DNA from: Nitrospinae bacterium RIFCSPLOWO2_12_FULL_45_22
Lineage (GTDB): Bacteria > 2-12-FULL-45-22
Direction of reading: 5' to 3'
Assembly (NCBI GenBank): GCA_001803565.1
Contig: MHDQ01000117.1
Coordinates: forward strand, 4,257-9,984
Length of the DNA stretch: 5,728 nucleotides
Position 1 is the stretch's first letter, and every line of letters begins with the position of its first letter. The position numbers were made by a program, and so were the translations under genes. This document shows, piece by piece, positions 1 to 5,607 of this stretch. The notes beneath the pieces were generated by a model. That model saw nothing but the letters and a program-made list of their open reading frames with translations, was not told the origin of the DNA and searched no databases.

Positions 1-63
1 AGCTATGAACTATGAGCTATGAGCTATGAGCTATGAGCTATCAGCTACCAGCTACCAGCTACC
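1..63 (+). repeat. Heptamer array A, AGCTATG orientation (cut by window edge)
   Basis: Nine 7-bp units run without a break: AGCTATG, AACTATG, three AGCTATG, AGCTATC, then three AGCTACC. The common core is AGCT followed by three variable bases. The array begins at base 1, so its true left end is outside the window. It ends exactly where the broken four-helix-bundle gene copy begins. The same order of variants (ATG, then ATC, then ACC) occurs before the intact four-helix gene at 774-801, but there only one AGCTACC is present. Unit number therefore differs between the two copies, as expected for slippage or unequal recombination. Confidence 0.95.
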
Positions 64-79
64 ATCAAAGGGGATGGCA

Positions 80-175
80 ATGGGATTTGCATTTGAAGAT
101 TTACAGGTTTATCAAAGGGCCCTGGAATTTTCCATTGCAGTAACTGATCGGTGTGTTCCGCGGTTAAAAAAATAA
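80..175 (+). pseudogene. Truncated 5' fragment of a four-helix-bundle protein gene
   Basis: Bases 61-148 match 799-886, the start region of the intact four-helix-bundle gene, with two substitutions in 88 bp (139 A versus G, 144 C versus T). The match includes the last heptamer unit, the AAGGGG ribosome binding site and the start codon. The reading frame from ATG 80 keeps the first 23 codons of the family (MGFAFEDLQVYQ and onward), leaves the homology after codon 23, adds eight unrelated codons and stops at TAA 173-175, giving 31 residues. The intact protein has 117. Only part of helix 1 remains, so a folded four-helix bundle is not expected. It is either a remnant of a duplicated cassette or the scar of a recombination that replaced the rest of the gene with the spacer and acyltransferase that follow. 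Confidence 0.85.
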
Positions 176-210
176 AAACCCTGTGCTCTTTGGTAAGTTT
201 ATCTATATAA
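149..210. other. Spacer with no gene; possible intergenic repeat debris
   Basis: This stretch lies between the end of the four-helix homology and the ribosome binding site of the acyltransferase gene. I see no gene beyond the tail of the broken frame. The text around 151-169 (GTGTTCCGCGGTTAAAA) and 180-193 (CTGTGCTCTTTGG) resembles degenerate intergenic repeats I have seen beside four-helix-bundle genes in other environmental genomes. That resemblance is from memory and unverified. No convincing -35/-10 pair with normal spacing was found, although TATATAA occurs at about 204-210. Confidence 0.35.
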
Positions 211-222
211 GAGGGGGCAGTT

Positions 223-705
223 ATGATGGAAGTATTAAAGATCATTGCGCCTGATGTGAAGCTGGGTAAGGATGTTAAGATCTATAACTTTGTTAATCTT
301 TATGGTTGCGAAATCGGTGATGAAACAAGGATTGGGACATTCGTGGAAATACAGAAGAATGTCAGAATTGGAAAGCAATGTAAGATTCAGAGCCATACAT
401 TTATTTGTGAAGGTGTGACCATCGAGGATGAAGTCATGATTGCTCATGGTGTGATGTTCATCAATGACCGTGACCCCCGGGCTGTCAACCACGATGGGTC
501 TTTACAAACGGAAGCCGATTGGACCTGTATTCCCACTTTAGTGAAAAAAGGGGCTTCTATAGGCTCAAATGCCACTATCATGTGTGGTGTAACCATTGGT
601 GAAGGGGCCCTGGTAGGTGCGGGTGCAGTGGTAACAAAAGACGTGCCGGCCGATACGGTTGTGATAGGCAATCCCGCACGGGTTTTGAGGAAACGAAGCT
701 CATAG
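223..705 (+). CDS. Left-handed beta-helix acyltransferase, WbpD/WlbB-like (probable nucleotide-sugar N-acetyltransferase)
   Basis: This 160-residue cytoplasmic protein is built from hexapeptide repeats, visible as I-G-x-x-x-x-I/V units over residues about 10-75 and 104-150 (for example IGDETRIGTFVEI and the IGSNATIMCGVTIGEGALVGAGAVV region), ending in the family signature GNPAR (149-153). The FIND segment (79-82) sits where WbpD-type enzymes carry a conserved Asn. Such enzymes acetylate the 3-amino group of UDP-2-acetamido-3-amino uronic acid using acetyl-CoA; this substrate is inferred from family resemblance and from the WbpB-like dehydrogenase downstream. ATG 223 follows GAGGGGG (211-217) by five bases; ATG 226 is equally possible. 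WbpD itself is about 190 residues, so this copy is short at its C-terminus. Its last two serine codons and TAG stop lie inside heptamer array B, suggesting the 3' end was trimmed by the repeat. Another O- or N-acetyltransferase of the same fold cannot be excluded. Confidence 0.85.
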   Translation: MMEVLKIIAPDVKLGKDVKIYNFVNLYGCEIGDETRIGTFVEIQKNVRIGKQCKIQSHTFICEGVTIEDEVMIAHGVMFINDRDPRAVNHDGSLQTEADWTCIPTLVKKGASIGSNATIMCGVTIGEGALVGAGAVVTKDVPADTVVIGNPARVLRKRSS

Positions 706-766
706 CTGTAAGCTGATAGCTCATAGCTGTAAGCTGATAGCTCATAGCTGTAAGCTGATAGCTCAT
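697..766 (-). repeat. Heptamer array B, AGCTCAT orientation
   Basis: Ten contiguous 7-bp units: AGCTCAT, AGCTGTA, AGCTGAT repeated three times as a 21-bp higher-order unit, then a final AGCTCAT. AGCTCAT and AGCTGAT arrays are the reverse complements of AGCTATG and AGCTATC arrays, so this block points the opposite way to array A. The first unit overlaps the end of the acyltransferase gene and supplies its stop codon. Because 7 is not a multiple of 3 and the units contain TAG and TAA at their joints, the array closes every forward reading frame within a short distance. The exact 21-bp periodicity implies recent expansion. Confidence 0.95.
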
Positions 767-798
767 AGGCATGAGCTATGAACTATGAGCTATCAGCT
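753..798. repeat. 16-bp perfect inverted repeat at the array B/C flip
   Basis: Bases 753-768 (AGCTGATAGCTCATAG) are the exact reverse complement of 783-798 (CTATGAGCTATCAGCT), leaving a 14-base loop. The structure forms where array B gives way to the oppositely oriented array C. The stem could form in RNA or as a cruciform in DNA. No run of T follows, so it does not look like an ordinary intrinsic terminator, though it could still slow exonucleases or act as a recombination or transposition end. Confidence 0.8.
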
Positions 799-801
799 AC
801 C
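774..801 (+). repeat. Heptamer array C, AGCTATG orientation
   Basis: Four units: AGCTATG, AACTATG, AGCTATC, AGCTACC. It follows array B after exactly one junction heptamer (AGGCATG, 767-773), so the 7-bp register is kept across the orientation flip. It ends just before the ribosome binding site of the four-helix gene, as array A ends before the broken copy. An ATG within it (785-787) opens a frame that reads through into the four-helix gene. Confidence 0.92.
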
Positions 802-805
802 ATCA

Positions 806-811
806 AAGGGG
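806..811 (+). promoter_or_regulatory. Ribosome binding site deciding the four-helix start
   Basis: AAGGGG ends directly before ATG 812 and six bases before ATG 818, so it serves the 818 start best. The same site is preserved in the truncated copy (68-73 before ATG 80), showing that the duplicated piece included the translation signal. Confidence 0.65.
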
Positions 812-817
812 ATGGCA

Positions 818-1171
818 ATGGGATTTGCATTTGAAGATTTACAGGTTTATCAAAGGGCCCTGGAATTTTCCATTGCGGTAATTGATATAATTGATGAAAT
901 CGATACGCCAAGGAAGCATTATAGACTGGTCGAACAGTTAGAAGCATCATGCACATCTGTGGCTTTGAACATTTCAGAAGGGAAGGGTCGGTTTTCCAAA
1001 AAGGAATTCAAGCAATTCTTATATATTGCCCGAGGGTCTCTTTATGAAACAATTACAATGCTGCAAATATTCAAGAAAAAAAGTTGGTTGGGTCAATCCG
1101 TTTATGTCAGGTTGTATTCTGAAGCTGAAGAGATAAATAAAATGCTTTCTGGACTAATAAACTCCATCTAA
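818..1171 (+). CDS. Four-helix-bundle protein (23S rRNA intervening-sequence / S23 family)
   Basis: The predicted soluble protein has 117 residues, normal for the family found in 23S rRNA intervening sequences and at many chromosomal sites, and related in fold to the Avd accessory protein of diversity-generating retroelements. Family landmarks are F-E-D-L-x-V-Y (5-11), Q40-L41 with A43-S44 and S47-V48, the NISEG motif (51-55), the S60-K-K-E-F block, and the I70-A-R-G-S-L-Y-E segment. Molecular function is unknown; the helices are basic and may bind nucleic acid. ATG 818 is chosen because AAGGGG (806-811) lies six bases upstream. ATG 812 abuts that site, and ATG 785 would add a repeat-encoded MSYQLPSKG peptide. 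The gene looks more A/T-rich than the glycan genes around it, is bracketed by inverted heptamer arrays, and has a truncated near-identical copy at 80, all consistent with a mobile or captured cassette between two biosynthetic genes. It shows no sign of a glycan role. Confidence 0.9.
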   Translation: MGFAFEDLQVYQRALEFSIAVIDIIDEIDTPRKHYRLVEQLEASCTSVALNISEGKGRFSKKEFKQFLYIARGSLYETITMLQIFKKKSWLGQSVYVRLYSEAEEINKMLSGLINSI

Positions 1172-1175
1172 GTAT

Positions 1176-1301
1176 AGCTCATAGCTGATAGCTGTAAGCT
1201 GATAGGGGATAGGGGATAGGGGATAGCTGTAAGCTGATAGCTGTAAGCTGATAGGGGATAGGGGATAGCTGTAAGCTGATAGCTCATAGCTGTAAGCTTA
1301 G
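1176..1301 (-). repeat. Heptamer array D, AGCTCAT orientation, with AGGGGAT variants
   Basis: Eighteen contiguous 7-bp units begin four bases after the four-helix stop codon. Types are AGCTCAT, AGCTGAT, AGCTGTA and a G-rich variant AGGGGAT, present three times at 1204-1224 and twice at 1253-1266. The AGCTGTA-AGCTGAT pair recurs between them. The last unit, AGCTTAG, is the junction to the opposite orientation. Orientation matches array B, so both lie downstream of a gene. The AGGGGAT runs appear in no other array of the window and look like local expansion of one mutated unit. Confidence 0.95.
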
Positions 1302-1321
1302 AACTATCAGCTATGAGCTAT
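1279..1321. repeat. 14-bp perfect inverted repeat at the array D/E flip
   Basis: Bases 1279-1292 (ATAGCTCATAGCTG) are the exact reverse complement of 1308-1321 (CAGCTATGAGCTAT), with a 15-base loop containing an AAGCTT site. As at the B/C flip, a hairpin forms where the array changes direction. No T-run follows, so an intrinsic terminator is not supported. Confidence 0.8.
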
Positions 1322-1350
1322 GAACTATGAGCTAGCAGCTATGAGCTAAA
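1302..1350 (+). repeat. Heptamer array E, AGCTATG orientation
   Basis: Seven units: AACTATC, two AGCTATG, AACTATG, AGCTAGC, AGCTATG and a degenerate AGCTAAA. It continues array D in the same 7-bp register with the direction reversed, making 25 uninterrupted units over 175 bp. Its last unit runs into the ribosome binding site of the dehydrogenase gene, so this array forms most of that gene's leader. Confidence 0.92.
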
Positions 1351-1356
1351 AAGGGG
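1351..1356 (+). promoter_or_regulatory. Ribosome binding site deciding the dehydrogenase start
   Basis: AAGGGG lies eight bases before ATG 1365. The upstream in-frame GTG at 1356 overlaps this site and is therefore unlikely to be the start. The A-run just before it is the degenerate final heptamer of array E. Confidence 0.65.
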
Positions 1357-1364
1357 TGATATAT

Positions 1365-2375
1365 ATGCTCAAGGTTGGTGTTATTGGATGTGGTTATTGG
1401 GGGCCGAATCTGATCAGAAACTTCGTCCAGATTAACGAGACCGAGGTAGCTCGTGTGGCCGACCTGGATGGGTCACGCCTGAGGCACATGAAAGGGCTTT
1501 ACCCGACGATTGAGACCACGGAAGATTATAGGGATATTATTACCGACCCCCAAATCGATATCGTAGCCGTGGCCACGCCGGTCCGTACACATTACCGGAT
1601 TGCCCTGGAAGCGCTCTCAGCCCAAAAACACGTATTCGTTGAAAAGCCGATTGCGGCATCTGTCCGGGAAGCGGAAGAGCTGATAGCCCTCGCGGAAAGG
1701 AATGAGCGAAAGCTGATGGTCGGTCATACCTTCCTGTACACCTCTGCGGTCCGAAAAATGAAGGAGATTATCGATGCTGATGAGCTTGGGGAAATATATT
1801 ACATCAACTCGCAGAGACTGAACCTGGGCCTGTTCCAACAGGACATCAACGTGATCTGGGACCTGGCCCCGCACGATATTTCGATCATATTATATCTGCT
1901 GGGTCAGGAGCCGCATTCAGTCCGTGCCATAGGCACATCCCATATCAATCCTGCTATAGAAGACATTGCCATATTGACCATGAATTTTGCCAACGGCCTG
2001 ATTGCCTTCATCCAGAGCAGTTGGCTCGACCCGGATAAGGTCCGAAAAATGACGATTGTAGGCAGTAAAAAGAGGCTGGTCTACGATGATGTCCAGCCCA
2101 CGGAAAAGATAAGGATTTACGATAAGGGTGTGGAAAAACCGGCACACTATAATACCTATGCGGAGTTTCCCTACTCGTATAAATACGGCGATATCATTAT
2201 CCCCAAACTGGATGGGGCTGAGCCGATTCACACCCAGTTAAGTCATTTTATCGAGTGTATAAACAATGGGGCCGCACCGATCAGCGACGGAAAAAGCGGT
2301 CTTCAGGTAGTGAAGATCCTCGAGGCGGCTCAAAGGTCTCTGTGCACGGGAAGCAGCCCGGTATCTATCGAATAA
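1365..2375 (+). CDS. Gfo/Idh/MocA-family sugar-nucleotide dehydrogenase, WbpB/WlbA-like
   Basis: The 336-residue cytoplasmic NAD(P)-dependent oxidoreductase has full family length. An N-terminal Rossmann fold is shown by VGVIGCGYWG (4-13, the GxGxxG dinucleotide loop). The family's catalytic lysine is K94 in the EKP motif (93-95), and D166 with H170 in WDLAPHD form the D-x-x-x-H pair expected in the active site. The second half is the alpha/beta substrate-binding domain. The closest recognised group is UDP-N-acetylglucosaminuronate 3-dehydrogenases (WbpB/WlbA), which oxidise the 3-hydroxyl before transamination and acetylation. Other members act on inositols or other sugars, so the substrate is inferred. 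The nearby WbpD-like acyltransferase supports the pathway, but the intervening aminotransferase is not in the window. The gene ends in tandem TAATAA, and the sugar transferase begins 10 bp after its first stop, indicating one operon. Confidence 0.88.
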   Translation: MLKVGVIGCGYWGPNLIRNFVQINETEVARVADLDGSRLRHMKGLYPTIETTEDYRDIITDPQIDIVAVATPVRTHYRIALEALSAQKHVFVEKPIAASVREAEELIALAERNERKLMVGHTFLYTSAVRKMKEIIDADELGEIYYINSQRLNLGLFQQDINVIWDLAPHDISIILYLLGQEPHSVRAIGTSHINPAIEDIAILTMNFANGLIAFIQSSWLDPDKVRKMTIVGSKKRLVYDDVQPTEKIRIYDKGVEKPAHYNTYAEFPYSYKYGDIIIPKLDGAEPIHTQLSHFIECINNGAAPISDGKSGLQVVKILEAAQRSLCTGSSPVSIE

Positions 2376-2385
2376 TAAATCCCCC

Positions 2386-3798
2386 ATGTTCCATCAACAA
2401 TTCTACATTATTGCCAACTTTCTGATGCTCCTGGATGGTGTGATTATTATCGCCACCGGGTATATGGCCTATTCCATCAGCCTGGAATTCAGGACCGAAG
2501 GCTTGATTATGGGCTGGTATGACTTTGTTGGCTCGGGCTTATTCTTGATGTTTATCAATAATCTATTTTTGGGAAGGTTTGGCTTTTATTCCCAGAGACG
2601 ATTTGCCTCAACCTGGGCCATGATTAAGGCCCTCTGTATGGCAGTCTCATTGGGTTTTATCGTCCTTTCTGCGGGTGTCCTTTTAATCGGGATCGAGCCT
2701 TTTTCCCGGGTGTTTTTTATTACCTATTTTTTGTCCGCAATGCTCGCCCTGATCATGACAAGGGTCATCCTGTATTATTACCTGGACCACCGGGCCCGGA
2801 CCAATCTCAACAGCCGCCAGATTCTCTTAATCGCAAGCAATGACCGGATCGGTATGGTAGCCGATGCCCTCTATCAGCAGCGCAGTTGGGGACATCAGGT
2901 AGTGGGATGCCTGAATGTCGATGGGGAAGGCAATACACAAGATTTGGACATACCGGTATTAGGAAATATCGATGACTTTGATAATATCCTGCGTGAACGG
3001 CAAATCGATGAGGTCATATTTGCCTTACCCAAGAATTATCCGCTCGATTTTATGATGTATTTGCGCAAGTGTGAGACCATAGGGGTCAGGGTCCGAATTG
3101 TGCCATCATTGTTCACCCCGGACCATTCGAGCCTGAAGGTCGAAAGCATCGCGGGTATACCCACCATTACCAACTATATCGGCAGTGCGAGCGCCTCCGG
3201 GCTGCTGTACAAGAGGGTCCTGGATTTAGTGGTAGGGCTATTCGGGTTCCTGGCTTTTATCCTGCTTTACCCGGTAGTCGGGCTGGCCATCAAATTGGAT
3301 TCGCCTGGTCCGGTGCTGTTCAAGCAGCGCAGAGTTGGTTTGCATGGCCGTCATTTTAATCTATACAAATTCCGTACCATGGTCTCAGATGCGGAATCGA
3401 AAAGGGCGGAAGTCACGATGGAGGCTGAGTCGGCCTGGCCGACCTTAAAGACGGAGAATGATTCCCGCATCACCAGGGTGGGACAATTCCTTCGGAAGGC
3501 TTCATTGGACGAATTTCCGCAATTTATCAACGTCTTAAAAGGTGAGATGAGTCTCGTAGGTACACGCCCGCCAATACCGGACGAAGTTGAACACTATGAG
3601 GACTGGCACCGGCGAAGGATTTCCATCAAGCCGGGTATTACTGGTCTGTGGCAGGTATCGGGCCGGAAAGAGATCACCGATTTTTCGCAGGTGGTGAAGC
3701 TCGACCTGAAATATATTGATAATTGGCGGTTTAGGCATGATTTTTGGTACCTGTGGAAGACCATCTGGGCCATCCTGGCCGGAAAAGGGGCGAAGTAG
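2386..3798 (+). CDS. Exopolysaccharide polyprenyl glycosylphosphotransferase (initiating sugar transferase)
   Basis: This 470-residue inner-membrane protein would move a sugar-1-phosphate from a nucleotide sugar to undecaprenyl phosphate, the first committed step of glycan assembly. The N-terminal half has about four hydrophobic helices (roughly 8-30, 47-64, 82-103, 106-132), then a soluble Rossmann-like CoA-binding-type domain (about 143-245, starting RQILLIASNDR). The C-terminal bacterial sugar transferase domain (about 275-470) opens with KRVLDLVVG and a hydrophobic segment (280-303). It carries SPGPVLFKQRRVG (306-318), YKFRTM (327-332), LDEFPQ with the Asp-Glu dyad D375-E376 equivalent to that of PglC-type enzymes, GEMSLVGTRP (386-395), and KPGITGLWQVSGR (415-427). 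All core motifs are intact and length is typical of the EpsB/WcaJ class. ATG 2386 lacks a clear ribosome binding site, so translation may be coupled to the dehydrogenase ending 10 bp upstream. The sugar cannot be read from sequence. Association with the downstream exosortase fits the EpsB-type enzymes of PEP-CTERM systems. Confidence 0.93.
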   Translation: MFHQQFYIIANFLMLLDGVIIIATGYMAYSISLEFRTEGLIMGWYDFVGSGLFLMFINNLFLGRFGFYSQRRFASTWAMIKALCMAVSLGFIVLSAGVLLIGIEPFSRVFFITYFLSAMLALIMTRVILYYYLDHRARTNLNSRQILLIASNDRIGMVADALYQQRSWGHQVVGCLNVDGEGNTQDLDIPVLGNIDDFDNILRERQIDEVIFALPKNYPLDFMMYLRKCETIGVRVRIVPSLFTPDHSSLKVESIAGIPTITNYIGSASASGLLYKRVLDLVVGLFGFLAFILLYPVVGLAIKLDSPGPVLFKQRRVGLHGRHFNLYKFRTMVSDAESKRAEVTMEAESAWPTLKTENDSRITRVGQFLRKASLDEFPQFINVLKGEMSLVGTRPPIPDEVEHYEDWHRRRISIKPGITGLWQVSGRKEITDFSQVVKLDLKYIDNWRFRHDFWYLWKTIWAILAGKGAK

Positions 3799-3802
3799 CC
3801 GT

Positions 3803-3810
3803 GGAGGAGG
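3803..3810 (+). promoter_or_regulatory. Orphan Shine-Dalgarno-like GGAGGAGG
   Basis: GGAGGAGG is the strongest ribosome-binding-type sequence in the window, yet no start codon follows at a usable distance; heptamer array F begins six bases later. It lies five bases after the sugar transferase stop. The exosortase start at 3887 is 76 bases further on and has its own GGGAG. One reading is that the array was inserted between this site and an original start codon. Chance, or a role as an RNA element, is also possible. Confidence 0.4.
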
Positions 3811-3815
3811 AATTT

Positions 3816-3846
3816 AGCTCATAGCTCATAGCTGTAAGCTCATAGC
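3816..3846 (-). repeat. Heptamer array F, AGCTCAT orientation (short)
   Basis: Four full units, AGCTCAT, AGCTCAT, AGCTGTA, AGCTCAT, then a partial AGC. The orientation is that of arrays B and D, again downstream of a gene block, here the dehydrogenase-sugar transferase pair. Unlike the others it is not followed by an oppositely oriented partner; 3847-3886 is ordinary leader sequence for the exosortase gene. Confidence 0.9.
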
Positions 3847-3886: not shown

Positions 3887-5530
3887 ATGCAGGGAAATAC
3901 GGTCGATAGAAGGAACGGGCTATTATGGGCTTCAATTATCGTTCTGGCGGGCTCTTTTTGCCTGCAATACTGGGTTGATCTCGGCGACCTGTTAGGCCGG
4001 TGGGACAGTGAGGACTTTTCTTATTGTTACCTGGTTCCGCTGGTATTTCTGTGGCTGGTTTATCTAAAAAGAGACTCCCTAAAAAGATATGAATTACGCC
4101 CCTCCCATTGGGGCATGGTCGTTTTATTACTCTCGGGGGCTTTCTACACGCTGGGTAAGCTCGGCTCGGTGGTAACGTTGATCCATATATCTCTATGGAT
4201 AACCCTTATGGGATTGACCGCATTGATCCTGGGCATCGCCATCGTTAAATCCCTTGGCTTTCCCTTTTTGATTCTGGGCTTTATCATCCCGCTCCCTCCG
4301 TTCCTGAACAATCTATTTACTTTCAAGCTAAAATTGATCGCCAGCTCTTTATCGATAAAAATGATTCAATTGTTTGGAATTTCTGTCTTCCGGGAGGGCA
4401 ATATCATCGACCTTGGCGTCATGCAGCTCCAGGTGGTGGATGCCTGTAGTGGATTGCGGTATGTTTATCCCCTGCTGCTCATAGCGCTATTGTTTGCCTA
4501 TCTGTTCCATAAGAAATGGTGGGAACGTGCCATCATGGTCCTGGCCGCCATACCCATCGCCATATTTTCCAATGCCCTCCGGATCGGCATCACGGTTATC
4601 CTGGCAGACAAGGTATCGCTGGGGGTGGCGGAGGGTTTTTTTCATGATTTTTCTGGGTGGTTGATCTTTATGGTCTCTTTTGTTGTCTTATTATTCTTGA
4701 GCCAGGTTTTAAAGATCATAAAACCCGCCATGAAAAAAGAGACCCCCATGGGCACCAGACTCTCAAGGGGAAATACACATCTACATCGCCATTCCCCCCA
4801 GGGGCTGGCGGTAGGCATGAGGGTAAGAGATGGCTTCTCAGCAGAAAATAAAAAACCAGTTGCCGGCCTTTTCCATCTCAAGGACATCAGCATACCCTAT
4901 CTCTGGGTAGCTTCGATTCTCTTATTGAGCTTTTGGGGATTAAATAGCGCCCTTGCCGCCGGCCGGATTAAACCTGAGAGACTCGCATTCGAGGATTTTC
5001 CCGCCGTGATGGGTGACTGGAAAGGGGAAAGGACATACCTGAGGGAGGAGATATTGAATTCCCTCTGGGCGGATGATTATGTGCACAGCATATTCCGGAA
5101 TGCCCGCACCGGTGATCTGCTTCTTCTCTTCGTACCCTATTATGAATATCAAGGGGTCGGGCATACAGCCCATTCCCCGGTTTCATGCCTGGTGGGTGGC
5201 GGATTTGCCCCCCGGAGCAGGAACATTATCGAGAGAGATTTTCGGGTACCATTCGGCAAAGTGAAGATCAGTCGGATGATCTTAGAAAAAGACGGGCAAC
5301 TCCTATTATCCAACTACTGGTTTCAGCAGCGAGGTCGCATCATCGATAATGAGTACTGGAACAAGTGGTATCTTTTCTGGGATTCGATAAGCAGGAGACG
5401 TACTGATGGGGCCCTGGTAAGGCTGGAGATGCCACTGAGAAATGGCCAGGATATAAAAGATGCCCAGGCATTGCTGGATTCATTCATCCTGGAATTAATG
5501 GAGATACTCCCGAGATACGTGCCCAATTAG
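3887..5530 (+). CDS. Exosortase fused to an EpsI (DUF3485) domain
   Basis: This 547-residue inner-membrane protein has two parts. Residues about 10-280 are a multi-pass exosortase with hydrophobic helices near 12-29, 45-60, 75-90, 95-120, 122-139, 192-207, 215-230 and 255-275. The signature ACSGLRY contains the nucleophile C187; R232 in NALRI and H253 in GFFHDFSGW complete the conserved Cys-Arg-His set. Exosortases cleave and are thought to transfer C-terminally tagged (PEP-CTERM-type) proteins during export in exopolysaccharide-producing Gram-negatives. After a polar linker (about 281-332) comes a membrane anchor (337-355) and an EpsI-type periplasmic domain (about 360-545) with MGDWKGE (375-381) and the HSPVSCL motif (429-435). 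Exosortase-EpsI fusions of about this size include XrtD (VPLPA-CTERM-specific), but I cannot settle the subtype. ATG 3887 has GGGAG (3876-3880) six bases upstream. No tagged target protein lies in the window. Confidence 0.92.
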   Translation: MQGNTVDRRNGLLWASIIVLAGSFCLQYWVDLGDLLGRWDSEDFSYCYLVPLVFLWLVYLKRDSLKRYELRPSHWGMVVLLLSGAFYTLGKLGSVVTLIHISLWITLMGLTALILGIAIVKSLGFPFLILGFIIPLPPFLNNLFTFKLKLIASSLSIKMIQLFGISVFREGNIIDLGVMQLQVVDACSGLRYVYPLLLIALLFAYLFHKKWWERAIMVLAAIPIAIFSNALRIGITVILADKVSLGVAEGFFHDFSGWLIFMVSFVVLLFLSQVLKIIKPAMKKETPMGTRLSRGNTHLHRHSPQGLAVGMRVRDGFSAENKKPVAGLFHLKDISIPYLWVASILLLSFWGLNSALAAGRIKPERLAFEDFPAVMGDWKGERTYLREEILNSLWADDYVHSIFRNARTGDLLLLFVPYYEYQGVGHTAHSPVSCLVGGGFAPRSRNIIERDFRVPFGKVKISRMILEKDGQLLLSNYWFQQRGRIIDNEYWNKWYLFWDSISRRRTDGALVRLEMPLRNGQDIKDAQALLDSFILELMEILPRYVPN

Positions 5531-5583: not shown

Positions 5584-5607
5584 CACTAAGGCACCAAGAC
5601 ACCAAGG
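5584..5607. repeat. Three 8-bp tandem units (CACTAAGG, CACCAAGA, CACCAAGG)
   Basis: Three contiguous octamers occur in the intergenic stretch after the exosortase gene. Octamers of the CACNAAGR type are, from memory, common intergenic repeats in environmental genomes. Like the heptamers they are short, degenerate and tandem, but neither unit length nor sequence is shared. Confidence 0.6.

Follow-up and report, generated by a model that had tools for sequence, protein, structure and literature searches.

We analyzed a stretch of 5,728 nucleotides (hereinafter, the window) of the Nitrospinae bacterium RIFCSPLOWO2_12_FULL_45_22 genome (assembly GCA_001803565.1, contig MHDQ01000117.1, positions 4,257 to 9,984), in which a four-helix bundle gene of the PF05635/TIGR02436 family lies among heptamer arrays containing AGCT (Table 1). 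The product of this gene scores 101 bits against PF05635 (cut-off 33.8) and 105 bits against TIGR02436 (cut-off 24); PF05635 is its sole domain, and no Y1 (HUH) transposase was detected in the gene. The first ATG of the gene is located within array C, and translation may instead begin at an ATG that follows AAAGGGG. The family is named for the intervening sequences (IVS) of 23S rRNA; in the window, no match to rRNA or to any other Rfam family was found, and the setting is a polysaccharide operon.

Table 1. Arrays and genes of the window (positions are those of the window)
Feature	Positions	Strand	Remark
Array A	1..64	+	Upstream arm, AGCTATG/AGCTACC units, of the truncated four-helix element
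Truncated four-helix gene copy	61..172	+	Head aligns with the start of the intact copy (~799-886) in 86/88 bases, then broken off
Hexapeptide acyltransferase	223..705	+	Polysaccharide operon; stop codon TAG inside array B
Array B	697..768	-	Reverse orientation; three heptamers per 21-bp period; overlaps the acyltransferase gene at its end
Array C	771..805	+	Upstream arm of the intact four-helix element
Four-helix bundle gene	785..1171	+	PF05635/TIGR02436 (23S rRNA intervening-sequence protein family); conserved domain from 833
Array D	1174..1298	-	Arm downstream of the intact four-helix gene; orientation opposite to C
Array E	1299..1348	+	Additional arm, in the gap upstream of Gfo/Idh; outward pair with D
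Gfo/Idh/MocA oxidoreductase	1356..2375	+	Ordinary operon gene, not cargo
Exopolysaccharide sugar transferase (TIGR03025)	2386..3798	+	Ordinary operon gene
Array F	3812..3846	-	Solo reverse arm before the exosortase gene
Exosortase	3887..5530		EpsI-type C-terminal domain; above the cut-off of TIGR04152 (VPLPA-CTERM exosortase XrtD)
Short 8-bp repeat CACCAAGA	5584..5606		Non-coding tail 3' of the exosortase gene

Re-reading of the window recovered the six arrays described in an earlier note on this DNA, with A, C and E in one orientation and B, D and F in the reverse one. Pairs of AGCT at a spacing of 7 bp occur 32 times, compared to 0.06 in shuffled sequences (maximum 2), and no pairs are found in the window at spacings of 5, 6, 8, 9 or 10. 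In local alignments, A, C and E group together on the same strand (scores 27-38), as do B, D and F (27-47), and every cross pair between the two groups scores higher in the inverted orientation (17-37) than in the direct one (7-14); for C and D, the complementary ends of the intact element, the respective scores are 18 and 9. The arm sequence of array A is the same as that of array C and leads into the same gene head. To the left of the window, the contig (L025) contains an additional outward pair of arrays (4143-4186 and 4189-4226) followed by an N gap (4228-4256), so that array A is not the first array of the locus.

The earlier note held that the arrays bracket every gene block, one orientation upstream and the other downstream. 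Given that all genes are on one strand and that the arrays form three outward pairs (the array pair left of the window with A, B with C, and D with E) plus the solitary F, this rule is automatic and provides no independent evidence for three cassettes. Genes for the DegT aminotransferase, hexapeptide acyltransferase, Gfo/Idh oxidoreductase and sugar transferase are grouped in compact, array-free clusters in other genomes, which identifies B, E and F as extra arms in operon gaps; these may be decayed elements, copies of arms or results of recombination between arms. The arrays of the window belong to the four-helix gene rather than to every gene block; as the note had remarked, the exosortase gene is adjoined by array F alone.

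The same association holds throughout this genome. The AGCT heptamer is confined to the window locus and absent from the rest of the 3.67 Mb assembly, so a genome-wide test of orientation requires arrays of any heptamer. The assembly holds nine PF05635 genes, all of which are flanked by short-period arrays, the upstream and downstream arrays being reverse-complementary in nearly all cases. The repeat unit differs from copy to copy (AACAAAG-type on contig C39, CGTTCAA on C92, CTAGGTT on C66, TCATTAG-type on C124 and AATTAGC-type on C67), the two arms being alike within a copy and unlike between copies. The best period is 7 in seven copies, 8 in one and 6 in one, the last having a weak inverted match between its arms.

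The anatomy of these loci is conserved far beyond Nitrospinae. We collected 80 loci from many phyla by protein similarity alone, with a consensus protein as the query, which biases the set to canonical members. Within 300 bp of the gene, the best period is 7 or 14 in 56 of the 80 upstream flanks and 58 of the 79 downstream flanks, and 8 or 16 in a further 11 and 14, respectively; in this survey, the excess of periods 7 and 8 is absent 1.2-1.5 kb away from the gene and inside it. When the upstream flank is compared with the reverse-complemented downstream flank of the same locus, the median score is 20, as opposed to 10 for different loci and 11 for the direct orientation. In an independent check of 29 Pseudomonadota loci found by Pfam, period 7 is the best in 24 upstream and 27 downstream flanks. 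Plasmids of cultured Nostoc and Calothrix carry inverted arrays around the four-helix gene likewise, indicating that this arrangement is not an assembly artefact. Phages yielded one weak match in 50,697 records, suggesting that the element is not typically phage-borne. Two candidate locations were rejected for the survey loci: targeting of tRNAs, which adjoin only a few copies, and 23S rRNA, for which a motif scan gave one doubtful hit.

Two side observations concern particular members of the family. In a Pseudanabaena galeata plasmid (L330), the cas6 and cas4 genes of a CRISPR operon are separated by a four-helix gene that is flanked by long heptamer arrays in direct orientation; at this position, the related plasmid L336 (type I-D) lacks the gene and carries a short array of the heptamer AATTACG. 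Genome G009 contains about 19 short, divergent PF05635 fragments, mostly in head-to-head pairs, such as C7:104028-104225(-) and 104402-104554(+).

When aligned in phase, the arrays share a heptamer, N-A-G-T-R-A-N, that points at the gene from both flanks and can be expressed also as (A/C)GTNNNN. A motif model trained on upstream arrays fits 46 of the 55 downstream arrays as the reverse complement, and in the reverse test, 44 of the 48 upstream arrays fit inverted. A typical array is 33 bp long, or about five repeats, a length that depends in part on the detection threshold. In the solved structure of the relative XCC0516 (2gsc), five four-helix bundles form a ring, as described in the two articles through which we cite the structure paper (PMC4990558, PMC10053308); the match between five repeats per array and five subunits per ring is suggestive only. 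On the protein tree, periods 7 and 8 are clustered (13 changes compared to a shuffled mean of 19.3; 0 of 500 shuffles as low), consistent with reading of the array by the protein, near-copies in the tree inflating the test. The neighboring genes mostly share the orientation of the four-helix gene, both upstream (83/86; baseline 76%, p = 5e-6) and downstream (75/84; baseline 79%, p = 0.04), suggesting that the element usually resides in a transcribed gap. Antisense copies also exist: the plasmid elements L326 and L327 are opposite to the surrounding genes.

Comparison of homologous sites reveals the presence or absence of a unit whose ends run from array to array (L328/L334 versus L332/L337; L327 versus L335; and a Flavobacterium site). 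In Nostoc plasmids of C052 and in N. edaphicum, an array-gene-array unit separates a TraM-like gene from the gene that follows; at the same site, C057 plasmids, with 94% identity in the flanks, have neither arrays nor gene, and ATCC 53789 has the arrays and no gene. Between nrdB and nrdA, the element is present in N. edaphicum (L327) and the site is empty in Calothrix (L335).

The richest case is an intergenic site compared across 64 Flavobacterium species: the element is present in about 30, an inverted heptamer hairpin without the gene in about 19, and another spacer or none in the others. Three types of four-helix protein with about 30% identity share this one site, and the states of the site are interleaved on the tree; two loci (L176 and L183) that were scored as "none" because the anchor fell within the gene do carry it, which reduces the number of changes with a slight effect. 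The copy number of PF05635 elements is 15 in one Flavobacterium species and 4 in another. Among 27 orthologously placed Flavobacterium elements, the two arms covary, with a match of 23.4 within species and 15.4 across species, a difference reached in none of 10,000 permutations. Two further observations were made in this genus: within one protein family, an 8-bp unit of the CTAAG type has changed to the CAAAG type on both arms (L168, L171 and L175 versus L173 and L177-L179), and at the shared site, another inverted repeat (CCCTCTCCAAAGGAGAGGG...) replaces the heptamer arrays in L182, L185, L189, L194, L197 and L202.

Arrays also occur apart from the gene. In 501 kb of the present genome, sampled in stretches, there are 23 arrays of period 7, 7 of period 8 and 0-1 at most other periods, and many of the period-7 arrays are inverted pairs without a four-helix gene. 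Of the 19 solo arrays, 8 show a closer match to the unit of a resident element than was obtained with any draw from foreign elements (p = 0.07 for the whole set). Stretches from genomes with PF05635 contain 12 such period-7 arrays in 344 kb, compared to 1 in 355 kb from genomes without it. Heptamer arrays have been reported in intergenic regions as GGGAATC in Xanthomonas, with about 70 convergent inverted pairs per genome, and as GGGGA(T/C)T in Nostoc (PMC4692102). Perfect GGGAATC triplets were found in 3 of 398 Pseudomonadota genomes, and two of these three encode PF05635, against a base rate of 62 in 396. In both, the gene, flanked by GGGA(A/T)TC arrays, is located between the genes for the biotin carboxyl carrier and biotin carboxylase, as read from translated ends, which links the published Xanthomonas-type repeats (PMC4692102) to this gene family. 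One gene-less GGGAATC pair has eight further bases in common with the element flanked by GGGA(A/T)TC.

Taken together, these findings suggest that a PF05635 gene between two inverted arrays of 7- or 8-bp repeats is probably an IVS-like mobile element of which the arrays are the ends. The window is best explained as one intact copy (C-gene-D), one broken copy (A with the gene fragment) and solo arms, all in gaps of a polysaccharide/exosortase operon. Both mobility and recognition of the arrays by the four-helix protein are inferred. Under this scenario, the arrays would be the recognized ends of the unit, and a ring of five subunits is predicted to bind the AGT motif that recurs along the arrays, possibly with each subunit contacting one repeat. 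The paired arms, as a hairpin in RNA or in single-stranded DNA, would be the substrate for copying or excising the element, and gene-less versions might spread in trans through such pairing, like IVS in 23S rRNA and REPIN/RAYT in chromosomes. The likeness of the arms could be maintained by slippage and hairpin-templated correction. We consider evenly poised the broader proposition that stand-alone PF05635 genes form an unrecognized class of mobile elements without a known transposase, whose ends are 7/8-bp AGT-type arrays read by a pentameric ring and whose gene-less derivatives explain much of the heptamer excess (GGGAATC in Xanthomonas, the Nostoc repeats and perhaps TAACTGA).

Several observations weigh against mobility or against the arrays as ends. 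No movement has been observed, and no target-site duplication was found at the few empty sites, which show a small spacer replacement rather than a clean insertion. The states of the Flavobacterium site differ in the entire spacer, so that replacement by recombination in the flanks could mimic insertion and loss. The array-gene-array unit encodes no transposase, nuclease or reverse transcriptase. Arrays E and F enclose no four-helix gene, and beyond the window locus the assembly contains no gene-less copies of the AGCT repeat. The arms of plasmid copy L330 are direct rather than inverted, and no arrays are obvious at weak, divergent PF05635 members (such as L040, L041 and L045), so that the pattern does not extend to the whole family. 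Finally, mismatches between the arms show no excess of G-U over A-C (103 versus 88, p = 0.31) and thus give no indication of selection for pairing in the RNA strand; they are compatible with a role of pairing as RNA or as DNA.

The strongest alternative, which we regard as possible, is that the unit acts at the RNA level, as an intervening sequence outside rRNA: the arms would pair in the polycistronic transcript, RNase III would cut the stem, and the four-helix segment would be removed or processed, the arrays being selected as the stem. The co-directional placement of the elements in operons, the covariation of the arms and the strong RNA folding of the region (z -6.6) are all compatible with this scheme, as is the precedent of the Coxiella IVS, which has heptameric repeats before a gene of the same family, a 28-bp terminal stem and excision by RNase III (PMC4990558). 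However, the lack of G-U bias and the antisense orientation of L326 and L327 argue against it, and a stem alone leaves the fixed 7/8-bp period and the conserved inward AGT motif unexplained.

Unlikely, in our assessment, is a purely autoregulatory role, whereby the four-helix protein would bind the repeats solely for regulation of its own operon, the unit would not be mobile, and its presence or absence would reflect ordinary gene gain and loss. Arrays that abut the gene, the plausibility of a repeat-binding ring protein and the clustering of the period on the protein tree would all be expected of an operator, but an inverted downstream arm would be unneeded, arrays of the same repeat occur dispersed without the gene, different branches of the family occupy one site, and the repeat differs among copies in the same genome. 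Neutral growth of microsatellites with hairpin-templated correction, the four-helix gene being a passenger, is highly improbable: slippage and quasi-palindrome correction would keep the arms alike, and solo arrays exist, but the excess of period 7 is tied to the gene and to genomes that have it (12 versus 1 arrays in ~350 kb each), and the polarity of the motif holds across phyla. The statement of the earlier note that random spread of a microsatellite does not fit was, accordingly, correct, with a period of 7 or 8 bp and inverted arms tracking one gene family across phyla.

Least probable of all is that the arrays are the ends of cassettes carrying whole gene blocks, including the acyltransferase or the dehydrogenase with the sugar transferase: A/B and E/F are indeed inverted pairs around those blocks, but the same genes are array-free elsewhere, and no such block was seen to be gained or lost between arrays. 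Of the inverted-repeat cassettes that the note suggested, those of the four-helix gene between C and D and, as a remnant, of the fragment next to A are retained, given the array-bounded presence and absence in isolates and between species; those of the acyltransferase with B and of the dehydrogenase and sugar transferase between E and F are not.

With respect to the remaining genes, the exosortase gene next to that for the exopolysaccharide sugar transferase marks a polysaccharide/exosortase locus. To the left of the window, the DegT aminotransferase open reading frame (ORF; L025:2604-4160) opens with an in-frame PIN-like start (MKIFLDTDVLIDATIGADEY...), a second copy of which is found at L025:1053-1343, and between the PIN-like copies there are ORFs that, judged by eye, resemble DUF433 and DUF5615. 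The arrangement is reminiscent of a toxin-antitoxin remnant that was rearranged and fused to the operon gene.

Intergenic heptamers are over-represented in bacteria and have been assigned neither a binding protein nor a mechanism of mobility (PMC4692102, PMC4679880). In the literature searched, which left out most subscription journals and preprints, we found no general link between heptamers and PF05635, the sole prior mention being that of the Coxiella IVS, a single rRNA element (PMC4990558). The present analysis joins two orphans, the bacterial heptamer repeats and the S23/four-helix protein family, the members of which are common small unknowns in environmental genomes. Should the arrays prove to be ends that are read by the ring protein, both orphan questions would become directly testable. 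For annotation, the four-helix gene and its inverted heptamers would be one unit, and solo inverted heptamers may be derivatives.

Among the known systems, the 23S rRNA IVS have in common with the element described here a PF05635-type gene, complementary ends able to form a long stem, heptameric repeats and a patchy distribution; in the Coxiella burnetii IVS with the S23p ORF, the repeats, GACAGAT, precede the ORF and vary in number among strains (PMC4990558). In contrast to these IVS, the present element lies between protein genes, both its arms are repeat arrays with a copy-specific unit, and there are gene-less derivatives. Avd of diversity-generating retroelements belongs to a four-helix family that resembles PF05635 and is essential for retrohoming of an RNA-derived copy (PMC10053308). 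Neither a reverse transcriptase nor template or variable repeats were seen here, the Pfam scan covering the proteins of the window and not the left half of the contig. We know of no heptamer arrays of the PF05635 type in diversity-generating retroelements.

The Xanthomonas and Nostoc repeats are likewise intergenic heptamer arrays, and a PF05635 gene is now found between arrays of the GGGA(A/T)TC type; the original report ties the repeats to G-quadruplexes rather than to a gene and notes no general association with mobile elements (PMC4692102). The TAACTGA repeats of Beggiatoaceae, Cyanobacteria and Bacteroidetes, the reverse complement of which contains AGT, are also intergenic heptamer arrays and possibly mobile, but are mostly direct and located upstream of start codons, and the report describing them contains no link to PF05635 (PMC4679880). 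In REPIN/RAYT systems (REPtrons), a gene for a Y1 transposase, RAYT, is flanked by inverted short repeats, and gene-less inverted pairs of the same repeat are dispersed in the genome. For PF05635, we know of no nuclease function. The four-helix gene is similarly flanked by inverted repeats, with gene-less inverted pairs of the same repeat elsewhere (the AGCT repeat of the window excepted), and differs in having arrays of 7-8 bp repeats rather than single short palindromes.

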